64,000 nt of DNA. Origin: Rhodospirillaceae bacterium (lineage in GTDB: Bacteria > Pseudomonadota > Alphaproteobacteria > SHVZ01). The position numbers and the translations under genes were made by a program. The notes under the pieces were generated by a model that made no database searches, was not told where the DNA came from, and saw only the letters and a program-made list of their open reading frames with translations. Positions 48,289-55,270 of this stretch are shown in pieces. The number at the start of each line of letters is the position of its first letter. Position 1 is the stretch's first letter. The stretch lies in assembly GCA_016792585.1 (NCBI GenBank), contig JAEULB010000100.1:1-64000 (forward strand), read 5' to 3'.

Positions 48289-48945
48289 TCAGCCGCGCAC
48301 GTATCTGAGGATCGTGTCGACGACGATCGCCCGCCGCTTGGCCAAGGCCCTCGCCGAGTCCATGTCGCGCTCGAAGATCAGCGAGAAGGTGGCGCGGTTC
48401 GAGACGTTGAAGAAGCAGAGCGCGCTGATCGACATGTGGATGTCGATCGGGTCGATCCCCTTGCGGAACACGCCCGCAGCGACGCCTCTCTGATAGAGGC
48501 CTTTGATCTTGTCGATGACGGTGGCGTTGACGTCGTGGATCGCCCGCGACTTCTTGAGGTGCTCGCCGTGATGGATGTTCTCGACCATCACCAGGCGGAT
48601 GAAGTCCTGGTTCTCGTTCTGATAGTCGAAGGTGAATCCGACCAGCGCCTTCAGCGCCTCCTCGGGCTCCAGGTGCTCGAGGTCGAGCGTGTTCTCGATC
48701 GTGCGGATCCGCCGATAGGCCTCCTCGAGGACGGCGAGGTACAGGCCCTCCTTGTCGCGGAAGTAGTAGTAGATCATCCGCTTCGAGGTGTTGGTGCGCG
48801 CGGCGATCTCGTCTATCCGGCCGCCGGAATAGCCCTTGCCCGCGAACTCCTCGGTCGCGACGTCGAGGATGTTGCGCCTGGTGCCTTCGGCATCCTGCGT
48901 CCGGGTCGGTCCCGGCCGGCCGGCGACGTCGCGGTCCTCACGCAT
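48289..48945 (-). CDS. TetR-family regulator of the quinate/shikimate operon
   Basis: The 218-aa DNA-binding repressor has the TetR helix-turn-helix (RRNILDVATEEFAGKGYSGG, IAARTNTSKRMIYYYFRDKEGLY) at about residues 23-70. The C-terminal ligand domain is all-helical. It is divergent from the operon for quinate/shikimate use, with a 14-bp palindrome between the two genes. The likely effector is quinate, shikimate or a pathway intermediate, by analogy with substrate-induced catabolic operons. Confidence 0.88.
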   Translation of the reverse strand: MREDRDVAGRPGPTRTQDAEGTRRNILDVATEEFAGKGYSGGRIDEIAARTNTSKRMIYYYFRDKEGLYLAVLEEAYRRIRTIENTLDLEHLEPEEALKALVGFTFDYQNENQDFIRLVMVENIHHGEHLKKSRAIHDVNATVIDKIKGLYQRGVAAGVFRKGIDPIDIHMSISALCFFNVSNRATFSLIFERDMDSARALAKRRAIVVDTILRYVRG

Positions 48946-49016
48946 TCCTTTGGGTCAACTCCCGTGTGAACGGCGGCGCCACTATACAGGCGAGGCCGGG
49001 CGGGCCGAGGGCGTCC

Positions 49017-49043
49017 TTGACTGAACTAACTAGTTCGTACATT
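49017..49043 (+). promoter_or_regulatory. Promoter and palindromic operator of the quinate/shikimate operon
   Basis: TTGACT (49017-49022) is a good -35. TACATT (49038-49043), 15 bases on, is the best -10. Between them GAACTA-AC-TAGTTC (49023-49036) is a perfect 14-base palindrome. Its length and position fit a TetR dimer site that blocks RNA polymerase, and it lies 77 bases from the divergent tetR start, so self-regulation is possible. A TATAGT -10 candidate for tetR lies at 48981-48986. Confidence 0.65.
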
Positions 49044-49107
49044 GCTAGGCGCAAGAAGACAATGCCGCGCCGGCTCGAGGCGGGACGCGGCGTTACGGGA
49101 AGGAACG

Positions 49108-50058
49108 ATGAGGGCGAAGATGCTGGCCGAGCGGGCGCTGTCGGCGCCGGCGGATGCTCCCGGATGGGAGGCGTCGCCGCGTTCGGTGCTCGTCGGCCTG
49201 ATCGGTTCCGGCATCCAGGCCTCCAAGTCGCCAGCGCTGCACGAGCGCGAGGGCGAGGCCCAGGGGCTTCGCTATCTCTATCGGCTCGTCGATCTCGACA
49301 GGCTCGGAATCGGCGTCGAGGCGATCGGCGAGCTGCTCGCCGCGGCGCCGCGCCTCGGCTTTGCCGGGTTCAACATCACGCACCCGGCCAAGCAGGCGGT
49401 GATCCCGCTCCTGGACGATCTGTCGCCGGAAGCGGAAGCGATCGGCGCCGTCAACACCGTGGTCTTCGACGGCGGGCGCCGGATCGGCCACAACACCGAT
49501 GCCTACGGCTTCGGCGAGAGCCTGCGCCGCTTCCTGCCTGATGCGCGTCTGGATCGGGTCGTGCAGATCGGCGCCGGCGGTGCCGGTGCCGCGGTCGCCC
49601 ATGCGATTCTCGCGCGCGGCGCCGGCGCGCTCACGCTGGTCGACCTCGATGCCAGCCGCGCCATCGCGCTGGCCAAGACGCTCCGCCAGCGTTTCGGCGA
49701 CCGCGTCGCCGTCGCCGTCGACCCGCCGTCGCTCGCAGGAACCGACGGTCTGATCAACGCATCGCCGGTCGGCATGGCGCGATACCCGGGAATGCCGGTG
49801 CCGGAGCCTCTGCTGCACTCGAGGCTCTGGGTCGCCGACATCGTCTACACGCCGCTCGAGACCGAGCTTCTCCGCGCCGCTCGCCGCCTGGGATGCCGCA
49901 CGCTCGCCGGCGGCGGCATGGCCGTGTTCCAGGCCGTCGAGGCCTTCCGTCTTTTCACCGGCATCGCCCCCGATGCCGCCCGCATGCTCCGGCATTTCGA
50001 CTCGATGAATGCCGGGGCCGATCTTTCGTCGACCAACCACACCGCAAAGGGAGGATGA
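49108..50058 (+). CDS. Quinate/shikimate dehydrogenase
   Basis: NAD(P)-dependent oxidation of quinate to 3-dehydroquinate or shikimate to 3-dehydroshikimate. The 316-aa protein resembles catabolic quinate/shikimate dehydrogenases such as the Corynebacterium QsuD type. Features are SGIQASKSPALHEREGEAQG, the catalytic Lys in GFNITHPAKQAVIPLL, GAVNTVVF, GHNTDAYGFG and the Rossmann loop QIGAGGAGAAVAHA. It is not the housekeeping AroE by context. ATG 49108 has GGAAGGAA upstream; the extra 22 upstream codons are non-coding. Confidence 0.88.
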   Translation: MRAKMLAERALSAPADAPGWEASPRSVLVGLIGSGIQASKSPALHEREGEAQGLRYLYRLVDLDRLGIGVEAIGELLAAAPRLGFAGFNITHPAKQAVIPLLDDLSPEAEAIGAVNTVVFDGGRRIGHNTDAYGFGESLRRFLPDARLDRVVQIGAGGAGAAVAHAILARGAGALTLVDLDASRAIALAKTLRQRFGDRVAVAVDPPSLAGTDGLINASPVGMARYPGMPVPEPLLHSRLWVADIVYTPLETELLRAARRLGCRTLAGGGMAVFQAVEAFRLFTGIAPDAARMLRHFDSMNAGADLSSTNHTAKGG

Positions 50059-50061
50059 CCA

Positions 50062-51048
50062 ATGGACTTCTCGGTTAGCCGCCGCACGCTTCTCAAGGCC
50101 GGCGCCGCCGTGGCCGCAGCCTCGGCCGTGCCCGCCTACGCCCAGGCCAAGCCGACTCTGCGCTTCGCCGCCGTGTTCTCCGACAAGGACATAAGGGCGA
50201 AGATGATCGAGATGCTGGCGAAGGACGTGGAAGGCGACTTCAAGATCGAGTCGCACCTCAACGGCTCGCTGTTCCGCCAGGGGACCGAGCTCGTGGCGCT
50301 CCAGCGCAACAACCTCGAGATGGGCAACATCGCCCCGCAGGACGTCTCGAACCAGATCCCGGCCTGGTCGATCGTGACCTCGGCCTATCTGTTCCGCGAC
50401 GCCAAGCACCTGCACGCCTTCTTCGCCAGCGCGCCGGGCGCCGAGATGACGAAGATGGTCGAGGACCAGCTCAAGGTGAAGATCCTCGGACCGACCTTCT
50501 TCGGCACGCGCCAGGTCGGCCTCAAGCCGACCAAGAAGATCACCACCCCGGCCGACATGGCCGGCATCAAGCTGCGCATGCCCGGCGGCGACGCCTGGCA
50601 GATGCTCGGACGCTCGCTCGGCGCCAACCCGGTGCCGGTCGCCTATGCCGAGGTCTACACGGCGCTGCAGACCGGCGCGATCGACGGCCAGGACAACCCG
50701 CTGCCGAACGTGCAGAACATGAAGTTCTACGAGGTCATGTCGCAGATGGTGATGACCAGCCATCTGATCGGCTTCGACCTCCTCACCATCTCGTCCAAGG
50801 CCTGGGGCGACATGTCGCCGGCGCAGCGCCAGAAGTTCCAGGCGGCGGCGACCAAGGCGATCCAGTGGAGCGCCGACGAGCACCAGAAGCAGGAGGCCGA
50901 GCTGGTCGAGTTCCTGAAGAAGCAGGGGCTCCAGGTCAATACGCCGGACATCAAGGCGTTCCGCGAGCATGCGCAGAAGATGTATCTCGCCTCCGACCAG
51001 GCGAAGACCTGGCCGGCCGGCATGCTCGACAAGATCAACGCGCTCTAG
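50062..51048 (+). CDS. dctP: TRAP transporter binding protein (DctP type)
   Basis: The 328-aa periplasmic receptor has a twin-arginine-like leader (SRRTLLKAGAAVAAASAVPAYA). DctP features are GTELVALQRNNLEMGNI, the conserved Arg in KLRMPGGDAWQMLGRSLGA that usually binds a carboxylate, and YTALQTGAIDGQDNPLPNVQ. With dctQ and dctM it makes a complete TRAP importer. Context points to quinate, shikimate or a related hydroaromatic acid as ligand. Confidence 0.92.
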   Translation: MDFSVSRRTLLKAGAAVAAASAVPAYAQAKPTLRFAAVFSDKDIRAKMIEMLAKDVEGDFKIESHLNGSLFRQGTELVALQRNNLEMGNIAPQDVSNQIPAWSIVTSAYLFRDAKHLHAFFASAPGAEMTKMVEDQLKVKILGPTFFGTRQVGLKPTKKITTPADMAGIKLRMPGGDAWQMLGRSLGANPVPVAYAEVYTALQTGAIDGQDNPLPNVQNMKFYEVMSQMVMTSHLIGFDLLTISSKAWGDMSPAQRQKFQAAATKAIQWSADEHQKQEAELVEFLKKQGLQVNTPDIKAFREHAQKMYLASDQAKTWPAGMLDKINAL

Positions 51049-51099
51049 CCGGCGCGTCACCGCCGCCGGTCGCCCTGGCCGGCGGCGAAGGGGAGGGGA

Positions 51100-51606
51100 A
51101 TGATCAGGATCAGGACCTGGCTCAGGCGTCGGGCCGAAGACGTGATCGTGCTTCTGCTCGCGGTCATGTTCGTCGCGTTCCTGATCCAGATCGTCTTCCG
51201 CTACCTGTTCAACTTCCCCATCGGCTGGACCTCGGAGCTGACGGTCGTCACCTGGCTCTGGCTGGTGCTGTGGGGCGCGGCTTTCGTCGTCACCGAGCGC
51301 GAGGAAATCCGCTTCGACCTGATCTACGCCGCGGTCGGCGACCGTACCCGCCGGGTCATGGCGATCGTGACCGGCCTCTCGCTCCTCGGCCTCTACGGGA
51401 TCTCGCTGCCGGCCGTCGCCGACTACGTCACCTTCATGAAGGTCCAGTCGACGGCCTATCTCAAGATCCGCTTCGACATCCTCTATTCGGTCTACCTCTT
51501 CTTCGTCGTGGCCGTGCTCGTCCGCTATGTCTGGCTGGTGGTCTCGGCGATCCGCGGCAAGGCGCCGGCCGCCTTCGACCCGACCCAGGCGAGCTCCGGC
51601 GTATGA
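51100..51606 (+). CDS. dctQ: TRAP transporter small permease (DctQ type)
   Basis: The 168-aa inner-membrane protein has four helices and the DctQ signature IQIVFRYLFNFPIGWTSELTV, followed by WLVLWGAAFVVTEREEIRFDL. Its stop codon overlaps the dctM start in ATGA. It assembles with DctM as the membrane part of a sodium-coupled importer. Confidence 0.92.
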   Translation: MIRIRTWLRRRAEDVIVLLLAVMFVAFLIQIVFRYLFNFPIGWTSELTVVTWLWLVLWGAAFVVTEREEIRFDLIYAAVGDRTRRVMAIVTGLSLLGLYGISLPAVADYVTFMKVQSTAYLKIRFDILYSVYLFFVVAVLVRYVWLVVSAIRGKAPAAFDPTQASSGV

Positions 51607-52898
51607 GCGCCTCGTTCTCGGCCTGCATCGCCGCGATCGTCGTCCTGAGCCTGCTCGGGCTTCCGATCGGGCACGCGATGATCGGCGGCTCGATCCTCTA
51701 CCTGCTGCTGGCCGGCCTCGACATGGGAACGGCGGCCGAGCAGCTGCTGAACGGCCTCTATACCGGTTTCATCCTGCTGGCGATCCCGCTGTTCATCCTC
51801 GCCGCCGAGTTCATGAACGCCGGCAGCATCACCGACCGGCTGCTCAGGTTCTGCAATGCGATCGTCGGCCGCTTCCGCGGCGGCCTCGCGCATGTGAACG
51901 TCGTGCAGAGCATCATCTTCGCCGGCATGTCGGGCTCGGCGATCGCGGACGCCGCCGGTAGCGGCAAGCTGATGCAGACGATGATGACTCAGGACGGGAA
52001 GTACCCGGCGAGCTTCGCCGCGGCGCTGACCGCCGTGACGGCGGTGATCGGCCCGATCATCCCGCCTTCGATCCCGATCGTGATCTACGCGCTCGTCGCC
52101 GACACTTCGATCGGCTACCTGTTCCTCGGCGGCATCGTCCCCGGCGTGCTGCTGGGCCTGGCGCAGATGGCGCTGATCGCGGCGGTGGCCAGGAAGCGCA
52201 ACTTCCCGGTCGAGGCGCCGGTGCCTCTCCGCGAGCTGCCGGCGATCACGATCCAGGCGCTACCGGCGATCGGCATGCCCGTGGTCCTGCTCGGCGGCAT
52301 CTACAGCGGCGTGTTCACCCCGACCGAGGCCGCCGCTGTGGCGGCCGCCTACGCGCTTCTGGTCTCGGCCGTGCTCTACCGCAACATGGGCTGGGGCGAC
52401 ATCTACCGCTCGCTGCTGTCGAGCGCGCGGGTTAGCGCCTCGATTGGCATGCTGATCGCCGGCGCGCTGGCCTTCAACTACGTGGTCACGATCGAGAGCA
52501 TCCCGAAGGCGCTCAGCATCTACCTCCAGACCTGGCAGCTCTCGCCGGTCACGTTCCTGATCCTGGTGAACGTCCTGCTGCTGGTCCTGGGTTGCCTGCT
52601 CGAAGGCACGACGATCCTGCTGATCGTGGTGCCGGTGCTGATCCCGACCGCGGAGGCGCTCGGCGTCGACATGGTGCATTTCGGCATCGTCGTCGTGGTC
52701 AACATCATGCTCGGCCTGGTGACGCCGCCCTATGGACTGCTGCTTTTCGTGATGACCAACATCACCGGCGTTTCCTTAAGCGCGCTGGTGCGCGAGGTGA
52801 TGCCGTTCCTCTGGGTCATGATCGCGGCCCTGGCGGCAATCACCTTCATCCCCGACCTCGTTCTCTTCCTTCCTCGCCTGATGGGCTACCAGGGCTGA
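51603..52898 (+). CDS. dctM: TRAP transporter large permease (DctM type)
   Basis: The 431-aa inner-membrane protein has about eleven to twelve helices. DctM hallmarks are GLYTGFILLAIPLFILAAEF, VNVVQSIIFAGMSGSAIADA, ALTAVTAVIGPIIPPSIPIV and the C-terminal GLVTPPYGLLLFV. Coupled to dctQ upstream, it is followed four bases later by the dehydroquinase gene, tying uptake to degradation. Confidence 0.94.
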   Translation: MSASFSACIAAIVVLSLLGLPIGHAMIGGSILYLLLAGLDMGTAAEQLLNGLYTGFILLAIPLFILAAEFMNAGSITDRLLRFCNAIVGRFRGGLAHVNVVQSIIFAGMSGSAIADAAGSGKLMQTMMTQDGKYPASFAAALTAVTAVIGPIIPPSIPIVIYALVADTSIGYLFLGGIVPGVLLGLAQMALIAAVARKRNFPVEAPVPLRELPAITIQALPAIGMPVVLLGGIYSGVFTPTEAAAVAAAYALLVSAVLYRNMGWGDIYRSLLSSARVSASIGMLIAGALAFNYVVTIESIPKALSIYLQTWQLSPVTFLILVNVLLLVLGCLLEGTTILLIVVPVLIPTAEALGVDMVHFGIVVVVNIMLGLVTPPYGLLLFVMTNITGVSLSALVREVMPFLWVMIAALAAITFIPDLVLFLPRLMGYQG

Positions 52899-52902
52899 CC
52901 CG

Positions 52903-53343
52903 ATGAATCCGATCTACGTGCTCAACGGCCCGAACCTGAACCGCCTCGGCAAGCGCGAGCCGGAAATCTATGGCACCACGACGCTCGCCGAGATCGAGGC
53001 GATGTGTCGGAGTGCTGCCGGCAGCCGCCCGGTCGAGTTCCGCCAGACCAATGCCGAATACCAGATGGTCGACTGGATCCACGAGGCGATCGACCGGCCG
53101 GCCGCCGGCATCGTGATCAACCCGGCCGGCCACACCTTCACCTCGATCCCGATCCTGGACGCGCTGAAGATGTTCCCCGGCCCGGTATTCGAGCTGCACA
53201 TCTCGAACATCCACAAGCGCGAGGCGATCTATCACAACTCGCTGGTCTCGAAGATCGCGACGGCGGTGATCGCCGGCCTCGGCCCCGACGGCTATCCGAC
53301 CGCGGTCGCAGCGCTGGTTCGCCTGCTGGACAAGAGAAAATAG
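52903..53343 (+). CDS. aroQ: 3-Dehydroquinate dehydratase, type II
   Basis: Converts 3-dehydroquinate to 3-dehydroshikimate; in this operon it works catabolically (QuiB/QsuC role). The 146-aa protein has LNGPNLNRLGKREPEIYG with the catalytic Arg and Tyr, INPAGHTFTSI and FELHISNIHKREAI. The usual F/W-R-H before Ser is replaced by IYHNS, a minor deviation. It sits directly between dctM and the dehydroshikimate dehydratase. Confidence 0.93.
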   Translation: MNPIYVLNGPNLNRLGKREPEIYGTTTLAEIEAMCRSAAGSRPVEFRQTNAEYQMVDWIHEAIDRPAAGIVINPAGHTFTSIPILDALKMFPGPVFELHISNIHKREAIYHNSLVSKIATAVIAGLGPDGYPTAVAALVRLLDKRK

Positions 53344-53344
53344 C

Positions 53345-55213
53345 GTGCTTCTTTCGATCGCCACCGTCTGCCTCTCCGGCACCCTCGACGAGAAGCTCGA
53401 GGCGATCGCCCAGGCCGGCTTCACCGGCGTCGAGATCTTCGAGAACGACCTGCTGACCTTCGACGGCTCGCCGGCCGATGTCCGCCGGATCGTCGCCGAC
53501 CTGGGCCTGAAGATCGTCACCTTCCAGCCGTTCCGCGACTTCGAAGGCATGCCCGAGCCGCAGCGCAGCCGCACCTTCGACCGCGCCGAGCGCAAGTTCG
53601 ACGTGATGCAGGAGCTCGGCTGCGACCTCCTGATGATCTGCAGCAACGTGGCGCCGGATTCCCTCGGCGGCATCGACCGCGCCGCGGAGGATTTCCGCGA
53701 GCTCGGCGGCCGCGCCGCCGCGCGCGGCTTCCGCGTCGCCTACGAGGCGCTGGCCTGGGGGCGCCACGTCAACGACTACCGGGATGCCTGGGAGATCGTG
53801 CGCCGCGCCGACCATCCGTCGGTCGGCCTCGTGCTCGACACCTTCCACACCTTCGCGCGCAAGACCGATCTGAAGCCGATCCGGGCGATCCCGAAGGACC
53901 GGATCTTCCTGGTCCAGGTCGCCGACGCGCCCCAACTCGACATGGACTATCTCTCCTGGAGCCGGCATTTCCGCTGCCTGCCGGGCCAGGGCGACTTCGC
54001 GCTCGGCGATTTCATGGCGTCGCTCCAGGCGACCGGCTTCGACGGGCTCCTGTCGCTCGAGATCTTCAACGATCGTTTCCGTGCCGGCTCGACCCGCGCC
54101 GTCGCGGTCGACGGCCACCGCTCGCTCCTCTTCATGCTGGACGAGCTCCGGCAGCGGACCGGGCAGGCGATCCCGGAGGTGCCGGTGCTGCCCGGGCGCG
54201 TCGCCTGCCGAGGCGTCGAGTTCGTCGAGTTCGCGGTCGACGATGCGTTCCAGCCGGGGTTCGAGACGCTGCTGCGCGGGCTTGGCTTCCGCCGATCCGG
54301 CGTGCATCGCTCCAAGGCCGTCACCCGCTGGAGCCAGGGGGGCATCAACTTCGTGCTCAATGCCGAGAAGGAAGGCTTCGCCCACTCCTTCGCGGTTGCC
54401 CATGGTCCGTCGGTCTGCGCGATGGCGCTCAGGGTCGATGACGCCGATGCGGCGATGACGCGGGCCGGCGCGCTGCTCGATCAGAGCTATCGCGGCCGCA
54501 TCGGCCCGGGCGAGCTCGAGATCCCGGCGCTCCGCGGCCTCGGCGGCAGCCTGCTCTACTTCGTCGACGAGAAGCGCGCATCGCTCTGGGAGACCGACTT
54601 CGCGCCTGCTGCCGACGATGCGCCGCCGGCCGGCCTCACCCGGATCGACCACGTGCAGCAGTCGATGCAGTACGAGGAGATGCTCACCTGGCTCCTCTTC
54701 TATGCTTCGCTGCTCGACGTGCACAAGTCGCCGGTCCAGGACGTGCTCGACCCCGGCGGCATCGTCCACAGCCAGGTGGTTCAGACGGCCGACGGCGCGC
54801 TCAGGCTGGTGCTGAACGCCTCGCAGAGCCAGCGCACGATGTCGGCCCGCTTCCTCGACGGCATCCTGGGCTCCGGCGTGCAGCACATCGCGCTCGCCAC
54901 CGACGACATCTTCGCGACCGTCGAGCGGCTCAAGGCGGGCGGCGTCGACCTGCTGCCGATCCCCGAGAACTACTACGAAGATCTTGAAGCCAAGGGCCTC
55001 GCGCTCGAAGAGATCGAGCGCATGCGCGGGGCGAACATCCTCTACGACCGCGACGGAAGCGCCGAATACTGGCAGGTCTATACGAAGAGCCTCGCAGACG
55101 GCTTCTTCTTCGAGATCGTCGAGCGCCTGGACTACCAGGGGTTCGGCGCGGCGAACGCCCCGATCCGGCTGGCCGCCCAGACCCGTTTCGCGCGCAAGCC
55201 GCAGCACCTTTGA
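53345..55213 (+). CDS. quiC: 3-Dehydroshikimate dehydratase, fused to an HPPD-like domain (QuiC type)
   Basis: Dehydrates 3-dehydroshikimate to protocatechuate. The 622-aa protein has an N-terminal TIM-barrel domain (about residues 1-270) with metal-site candidates GVEIFENDLLTF, YEALAWGRHVNDY, LVLDTFHTF and LLSLEIFND. The C-terminal part (about 290-610) has two vicinal-oxygen-chelate halves like hydroxyphenylpyruvate dioxygenase, with His in IDHVQQS and VQHIALA and Glu in FFFEIVER. This fusion matches QuiC1-type enzymes of Pseudomonas. GTG is the start, 1 base after the aroQ stop. The product feeds the beta-ketoadipate route, whose genes are not in the window. Confidence 0.9.
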   Translation: MLLSIATVCLSGTLDEKLEAIAQAGFTGVEIFENDLLTFDGSPADVRRIVADLGLKIVTFQPFRDFEGMPEPQRSRTFDRAERKFDVMQELGCDLLMICSNVAPDSLGGIDRAAEDFRELGGRAAARGFRVAYEALAWGRHVNDYRDAWEIVRRADHPSVGLVLDTFHTFARKTDLKPIRAIPKDRIFLVQVADAPQLDMDYLSWSRHFRCLPGQGDFALGDFMASLQATGFDGLLSLEIFNDRFRAGSTRAVAVDGHRSLLFMLDELRQRTGQAIPEVPVLPGRVACRGVEFVEFAVDDAFQPGFETLLRGLGFRRSGVHRSKAVTRWSQGGINFVLNAEKEGFAHSFAVAHGPSVCAMALRVDDADAAMTRAGALLDQSYRGRIGPGELEIPALRGLGGSLLYFVDEKRASLWETDFAPAADDAPPAGLTRIDHVQQSMQYEEMLTWLLFYASLLDVHKSPVQDVLDPGGIVHSQVVQTADGALRLVLNASQSQRTMSARFLDGILGSGVQHIALATDDIFATVERLKAGGVDLLPIPENYYEDLEAKGLALEEIERMRGANILYDRDGSAEYWQVYTKSLADGFFFEIVERLDYQGFGAANAPIRLAAQTRFARKPQHL

Positions 55214-55222
55214 GGGAGTGAC

Positions 55223-55246
55223 GATCGCGCCTATCATCGCGCGATC
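55223..55246 (+). terminator. Hairpin at the end of the quinate operon
   Basis: An 8-bp perfect inverted repeat (GATCGCGC, 8-base loop, GCGCGATC) starts 10 bases after the quiC stop. No T run follows, so it may be a Rho-dependent end or an mRNA-stabilising 3' structure. It lies before the next gamma-glutamyltransferase gene and suggests that gene is a separate unit. Confidence 0.45.
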
Positions 55247-55270
55247 CGGTCCCTCTCCAAAGGCAATCCC

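Follow-up and report, generated by a model that had tools for sequence, protein, structure and literature searches.

A 64,000-nucleotide stretch of a Rhodospirillaceae bacterium genome (positions 1 to 64,000 of contig JAEULB010000100.1, assembly GCA_016792585.1; hereafter the window) carries at positions 48,289 to 55,246 what is probably an operon for quinate uptake and catabolism repressed by a TetR-family protein. This reading is carried by the genes themselves, their order, the conservation of their linkage among relatives, a conserved operator-like site before the first gene, and the presence of protocatechuate (pca) genes elsewhere in the genome, all of which were observed. The ligand, inducer, promoter, direction of regulation, and enzyme activities are assigned conditionally from these observations.

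The operon and its predicted route to protocatechuate

Family profile searches of the window placed six tightly packed genes on the plus strand in the order SDH-dctP-dctQ-dctM-aroQ-quiC, with spacing from -4 bases (the overlap of dctQ and dctM) to +51 bases, and a tetR gene divergent from them. All of the operon genes are open reading frames of the claimed families. They encode a quinate/shikimate dehydrogenase (SDH), the full DctP, DctQ, and DctM set of a tripartite ATP-independent periplasmic (TRAP) transporter (PF03480, PF04290, PF06808), a type II 3-dehydroquinate dehydratase (AroQ), and a QuiC-type 3-dehydroshikimate dehydratase. With TetR, these are the proteins that an earlier, sequence-only reading of the window had named, and the profiles confirmed each family.

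In the proposed route, DctP would capture quinate in the periplasm, and DctQM would import it, driven by a cation gradient as is known for the family. SDH would then turn quinate into 3-dehydroquinate and could also turn shikimate into 3-dehydroshikimate. The type II dehydroquinase would convert 3-dehydroquinate to 3-dehydroshikimate, which QuiC would dehydrate to protocatechuate, and PcaGH and PcaB, encoded elsewhere, would take protocatechuate into the beta-ketoadipate pathway. When no inducer is present, a TetR dimer would occupy an 18-bp palindrome overlapping the promoter, from which a hydroaromatic inducer would release it.

The best relatives of SDH in the Protein Data Bank, both taken to be Corynebacterium glutamicum enzymes, were 2nlo, named shikimate dehydrogenase, and 3jyo, named quinate/shikimate dehydrogenase, at 271 bits each. 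The protein exceeded the cut-offs of both NF009201 and NF001319. In this family S-x-S is a substrate mark and Asp or NRT are cofactor marks, Asp being typical of NAD enzymes. The cofactor motif of the window SDH, VDLD, carries Asp, and the enzyme is probably of the NAD type. QuiC (622 residues) aligned over nearly its full length, residues 3-614, with 5hmq, presumably Pseudomonas putida QuiC1, at 635 bits. The sequence-only reading had proposed a search for pca genes elsewhere and had treated their absence as refuting. The search, which covered pcaH, pcaG, and pcaB, found all three over curated cut-offs (TIGR02422, TIGR02423, TIGR02426) at G000:C17 of the same genome (5.09 Mb; assembly 88.8% complete). 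Protocatechuate therefore has an outlet, since pcaHGB are encoded elsewhere in the genome. A second AroQ is encoded at G000:C204:74709-75119, so that the operon dehydroquinase is distinct from the biosynthetic one, and class I dehydroquinase gave 0 matches in the genome.

Conserved linkage of the TRAP and quinate genes

From the best 80 of 399 DctP matches we obtained 79 genome_contigs loci with a DctP of the window type (66-95% identical; some loci are short), whose record titles name mostly alpha- and betaproteobacteria. No more than 8 kb from dctP, AroQ was found at 64 of the 79 loci, SDH at 53, QuiC at 25, and TetR at 28; 72 loci had one or more of the three enzymes, a number unchanged on narrowing to 6 kb, and 22 had all three. 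Among the SDH and QuiC hits counted are weak ones, the lowest at about 28-30% identity. A recount at 45% identity or above gave AroQ at 60, SDH at 36, QuiC at 15, TetR at 20, any enzyme at 66, and all three at 15. The TRAP genes were adjoined on the same strand by AroQ in 58/79 loci and by SDH in 44/79.

The control was a set of 40 loci chosen by hand from DctP matches in 289 genomes of the class, with about 6 kb taken on each side (for at least six, L151, L155, L163, L165, L167, and L172, the stretch is shortened by a contig end or by the choice of its ends). Linkage to pathway genes was seen in 6/6 loci with DctP at 52-67% identity, clearly in 4/14 and weakly in 2 more at 41-51%, and in 0/20 under 40%. 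In a tree of 65 DctPs, with "linked" labels assigned by hand and L170, L173, and L174 omitted (matched stretch under 240 residues), the window protein belongs to a 34-row clade supported at 100/100, with 30 rows linked and 4 unlinked. Linked rows outside this clade include L010, a Sinorhizobium meliloti locus taken up below, and three of the sister branch. Of 106 other tabulated loci, among which a few duplicate the same DNA (L062 and L003 are one plasmid), 9 repeat the exact gene order of the window and 21 have TetR divergent from SDH at the TRAP locus; because of this recurrence the arrangement is not due to chance.

Some neighborhoods carry further genes of the pathway. In Paracoccus, pca genes flank the same TRAP-AroQ set, and pca genes occur at further relatives too; in Alloyangia, the set is preceded by a gene for a pyrroloquinoline quinone (PQQ)-dependent dehydrogenase of the glucose/quinate/shikimate family. 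The regulator beside the set varies by lineage, being TetR, IclR (L025, L031), or GntR (L001, L004, L005, L009). S. meliloti MABNR56 (L009:4353-11336) has a window-type cluster of TetR, SDH, DctPQM, and AroQ in which, judged by eye, QuiC is an apparent short remnant, and a transposase-like open reading frame lies between this remnant and dctP. The DctP of L011, a relative within the genus, is 95% identical to that of the window.

TetR and its predicted operator

Homologs of the window TetR (50-83% identical) are encoded divergently at other TRAP-quinate loci. Comparison of homologous regions yielded an 18-bp palindrome, GTACnAACTAGTTnGTAC, of which the genus relative L181 has a perfect copy. 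A site scoring at least 12/16 was found at 17 of the 24 loci with divergent TetR, and TTGA keeps the same position ahead of the site in 16 of the 24. Four further loci with tetR on the minus strand scored 12 (L048), 13 (L055), 9 (L001), and 10 (L064), two of the four thus reaching 12. For comparison, 33 of 3000 random stretches reach 12/16, an overestimate of background since true sites are included. In the window's own genome, the 13-base half AACTAGTTnGTAC, with one mismatch at most allowed, matched solely at 49,023-49,040, on both strands, and the reversed control pattern gave 9 matches.

The recognition helix of the divergent TetRs is SKRMIYY(Y/H)F, at loci with a weak site as well. In 11 betaproteobacterial TetRs encoded on the same strand, the helix is TTR(A/G)xINYYF, and a scan of the 320 bases ahead of these 11 genes gave no operator (scores 8-10/16; the tetR-dctP gap lay outside the scan). 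In these comparisons the operator-like site goes with the type of recognition helix. The best reading is a local TetR repressor that would block a predicted promoter by binding the palindrome at 49,023-49,040 until a putative inducer intervenes.

Comparison with described quinate systems

The enzyme families of the window (SDH and the two-domain dehydratase) are shared with the C. glutamicum qsu route (QsuB, QsuD) and the Pseudomonas QuiC1 route, where uptake is by major facilitator superfamily (MFS) proteins and control by LysR or other regulators. In P. aeruginosa, the PA0242-PA0245 locus places a TetR-family gene (PA0243, Pip) among QuiC-like, SDH, and AroQ genes, with an MFS rather than a TRAP transporter, so that TetR beside quinate-type genes is not new. 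PA0243 has been described to regulate pyocyanin genes positively (PMC9736018).

For the S. meliloti TRAP binding protein SMb20036, work published in 2012 gives binding at 5.9 nM for D-quinate but only at 0.1 mM for shikimate and an 8.7-fold induction by D-quinate; its gene adjoins one annotated as shikimate 5-dehydrogenase (PMC3454389). The sequence-only reading had stated that characterized quinate systems use MFS transporters, a statement this quinate-induced TRAP protein contradicts, and the view that quinate enters solely by MFS proteins is corrected. We presume that a pSymB stretch (L010; NC_003078, which came with no gene table) is the SMb20034-37 locus, having matched it by genes and order. 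Like the window, it has a TRAP transporter, an SDH (60% identical), a divergent TetR (51%), and the operator-like site (14/16). It differs from the window in its DctP and DctM, which are only 28% and 37% identical, and the window importer is therefore of another TRAP branch. It differs as well in having no match to AroQ or QuiC in the 22 kb examined and in its gene order, DctQ-DctM-DctP-SDH, with DctQ judged by position. The TetR at this presumed locus (L010:15803-20606), with its window-like site, goes unmentioned in the available portion of PMC3454389.

Plasmid pCO-6 of Chelatococcus sp. CO-6 has the identical order TetR/SDH-DctP-DctQ-DctM-AroQ-QuiC, with proteins 56-73% identical to those of the window; unlike the window, its operator-like site has diverged (11/16), and the cluster is annotated by family only. 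We found no open-access paper joining TRAP transporter, quinate, shikimate, and TetR and, in open-access literature surveyed mostly by title, no title on a TRAP-TetR quinate operon. The proposal that a TRAP importer with a TetR repressor is a new variant thus needs narrowing: a quinate TRAP protein has been published for S. meliloti (PMC3454389), and a 51% identical TetR stands beside its presumed locus, while the window importer does form a separate branch. What is new here is a separate, widespread TRAP branch with linkage to quinate genes, together with the TetR-operator pair; the chemistry is largely ordinary. The branch, mainly of alpha- and betaproteobacteria by record titles, gains a specific predicted ligand that can be tested, and the TetR with its predicted operator is a possible quinate biosensor.

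The likely ligand of DctP

The AlphaFold model of DctP (pLDDT 82) has as its best structural match RD1_0742 of Roseobacter denitrificans (4pf6; Z 34.2, root mean square deviation 2.4 over 289), the nearest solved DctP, followed by sialic acid binders. Residues R150, R172, and N212 are invariant in 49 sequences and, by motif and inference, map to the carboxylate site of SiaP, which is formed by Arg127, Arg147, and Asn187 (PMC3454389). The alignment of DctPs (A2) omits that of the genus relative L013, whose dctP has an in-frame stop, either real or an assembly error. We considered whether the window DctP is an ortholog of SMb20036 and ruled this out by the 28% identity and the remote position in the tree, where L010 sits on a long branch. 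Because DctP is not an ortholog of the proven quinate binder, its ligand is a prediction. No report of a ligand for the window's DctP branch was found in open-access literature, surveyed mostly by title.

Quinate is most likely the ligand, with 3-dehydroquinate ranked second and shikimate third. Quinate or 3-dehydroquinate is favored over shikimate because a dehydroquinase, which those two acids require and shikimate does not, is a frequent linked gene. The sequence-only reading had treated quinate and shikimate alike, which does not fit with dehydroquinase as the commonest partner (64/79) or with the preference of SMb20036 for quinate, which exceeds 15,000-fold. That the imported acid is shikimate seems improbable. 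In its favor, the S-K-S motif of the SDH-family enzyme matches that of AroE, and for shikimate SDH and QuiC alone would suffice. This would leave no use for AroQ, the partner found most often. SMb20036 takes shikimate only at the 0.1 mM cited above, and in Rhizobium leguminosarum shikimate uptake has been ascribed to an MFS protein (PMC3333776).

Alternatively, a PQQ quinate dehydrogenase acting outside the inner membrane would form 3-dehydroquinate (or 3-dehydroshikimate), and the TRAP transporter would bring this product in for AroQ; this is a somewhat better candidate than shikimate, if still an unlikely one. It would account for the preference of the TRAP genes for AroQ over SDH as the adjoining gene on the same strand (58/79 vs 44/79) and for the Alloyangia locus, where the PQQ-dependent dehydrogenase gene stands before DctPQM-AroQ and SDH was not found in that stretch. 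The window's own genome, however, gave no PQQ membrane dehydrogenase over the cut-off (best match 19.4 bits in the 88.8% complete assembly), the operon has a dehydrogenase of its own, and a PQQ match, a weak one, lies within 8 kb in only 2 of the 79 loci. Less probable again than either is that DctP binds another acid, such as 3-deoxy-D-manno-octulosonic acid (KDO) or protocatechuate, with the quinate-gene linkage secondary. The structural neighbors of DctP, a presumed KDO binder and then sialic acid binders, point that way, as does a TRAP transporter reported for protocatechuate in R. leguminosarum (PMC3333776). The closest of these neighbors is only 38% identical to the window DctP, however; the linkage, mostly lacking in the control loci at 41-51% DctP identity, is kept in the window branch, and protocatechuate import would leave AroQ and SDH unexplained.

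Several observations weigh against quinate import under TetR control. In 7 of the 79 loci, and in 13 once matches must reach 45% identity, no member of the enzyme trio was found within 8 kb; L068, among the former, carries a type I dehydroquinase instead. Seven of the 24 divergent-TetR loci score below 12/16 though their recognition helix is of the same type, and the operator consensus was itself taken from the window and L010 sites. The spacer of the presumed promoter is only 15 nt, and the promoter scan, which requires 16-18 nt, did not list it. SDH falls below the cut-off of the NAD+ quinate/shikimate dehydrogenase model NF010631 (280 vs 515), and QuiC, with an E value of 3e-216 against NF042435, reaches 720 bits where that model asks for 1200. 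With SMb20036, for which quinate binding is proven, the window DctP shares 28% identity, and its nearest solved relative, RD1_0742 at 38% identity, was reportedly solved with KDO.

Operon SDH and aromatic biosynthesis in the genus

An operon that is not purely catabolic, with an SDH serving aromatic amino acid biosynthesis as well, is doubtful but has some observations in its favor. TIGR00507 found no AroE over its cut-off in 6/6 genomes of the genus, and its matches below the cut-off were solely the operon SDH (5/6 genomes) and an SDH-like protein (6/6), while chorismate synthase was present in 5/5 genus genomes tested. The operon SDH of the genus and family has S-K/R-S, as does canonical AroE, and most other clusters have S-x-T or S-L-S. 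The cut-off of TIGR00507 is strict, however: all of 14 control genomes had a match but only 9 passed, so that AroE was missed in 5/14, and the genus assemblies are 77-97% complete. S-R-S is also found in clusters L057, L061, L070, L082, and L144, the cofactor motif of the operon SDH is of the NAD type, and control by TetR would starve the cell.

The SDH-like protein of the window's own genome (G000:C25:2587-3321; L099, L105), in which by eye the cofactor motif is NRT and VRG replaces SxS, could instead be the biosynthetic enzyme. Its gene adjoins short-chain dehydrogenase/reductase-, beta-keto acid cleavage enzyme-, and glutathione S-transferase-like genes, also judged by eye. Either the operon SDH or the SDH-like protein would thus serve biosynthesis, or an AroE was missed. 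We also entertain, as a speculative and rather unlikely extension of the quinate reading, that one TetR with its 18-bp operator acts as a portable switch for quinate and has taken over two or more unrelated TRAP importers, among them the proven SMb20036 type and the widespread, AroQ-linked window type, which would perhaps import 3-dehydroquinate too, and that in the window genus it also governs the only SxS-type SDH found. Were this true, aromatic biosynthesis in the genus could draw on scavenged quinate or shikimate.

Features of the locus and the end of the operon

The coordinates of the features are collected in Table 1. The start of SDH was set at the ATG at 49,108, which has a ribosome-site-like GGAAGG upstream; the mechanical open reading frame begins earlier. 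Neither TetR nor QuiC matched defense-protein models.

Table 1. Genes and sequence elements of the predicted quinate operon, in window coordinates
Feature	Coordinates	Strand	Evidence and remarks
TetR-family repressor gene (predicted)	48289..48945	-	Divergent from operon; PF00440 (TetR_N helix-turn-helix, over cut-off) 2.7e-15, PF17938 (TetR_C_29) 5e-49
-35-like element TTGACT	49017..49022	+	Sequence; directly before predicted operator
Predicted TetR operator GAACTAACTAGTTCGTAC	49023..49040	.	15/16 to consensus GTACnAACTAGTTnGTAC
-10-like element TACATT	49038..49043	+	Overlaps operator; 15-nt spacer; by inference
Quinate/shikimate dehydrogenase (SDH), probably NAD type	49108..50058	+	NF009201 429.6 bits (cut-off 235)
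DctP, TRAP solute-binding protein, twin-arginine translocation (Tat)-type signal	50062..51048	+	PF03480 1.4e-58, PF10518 1.5e-5
DctQ, TRAP small permease	51100..51606	+	PF04290 4.8e-15
DctM, TRAP large permease	51603..52898	+	PF06808 8.8e-106; TIGR00786 over cut-off
Type II 3-dehydroquinate dehydratase (catabolic AroQ)	52903..53343	+	PF01220 9.5e-48; NF003806 over cut-off
QuiC-type 3-dehydroshikimate dehydratase	53345..55213	+	PF01261 (TIM barrel) and PF14696 (4-hydroxyphenylpyruvate dioxygenase-like half)
Hairpin after quiC	55207..55263 (inner stem 55223-55246)	+	dG -32.3 kcal/mol, z -5.0

The sequence-only reading had the operon ended by a hairpin. The hairpin is real, being more stable than its shuffles (z -5.0; 1 of 200 folds equally well), but it is not followed by a T run and the terminator scan did not report it, so that it is only a candidate terminator. 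A gamma-glutamyltransferase gene lies downstream of quiC in L011 and is missing at that place in the genus relatives L012 and L013, for which reason the conserved unit is taken to terminate with quiC. A hairpin resembling that of the window is visible after quiC in L011 (15201-15232). The loops of both hairpins contain CTATCAT, a -10-like sequence, and a promoter for downstream genes may lie inside the quiC hairpin.

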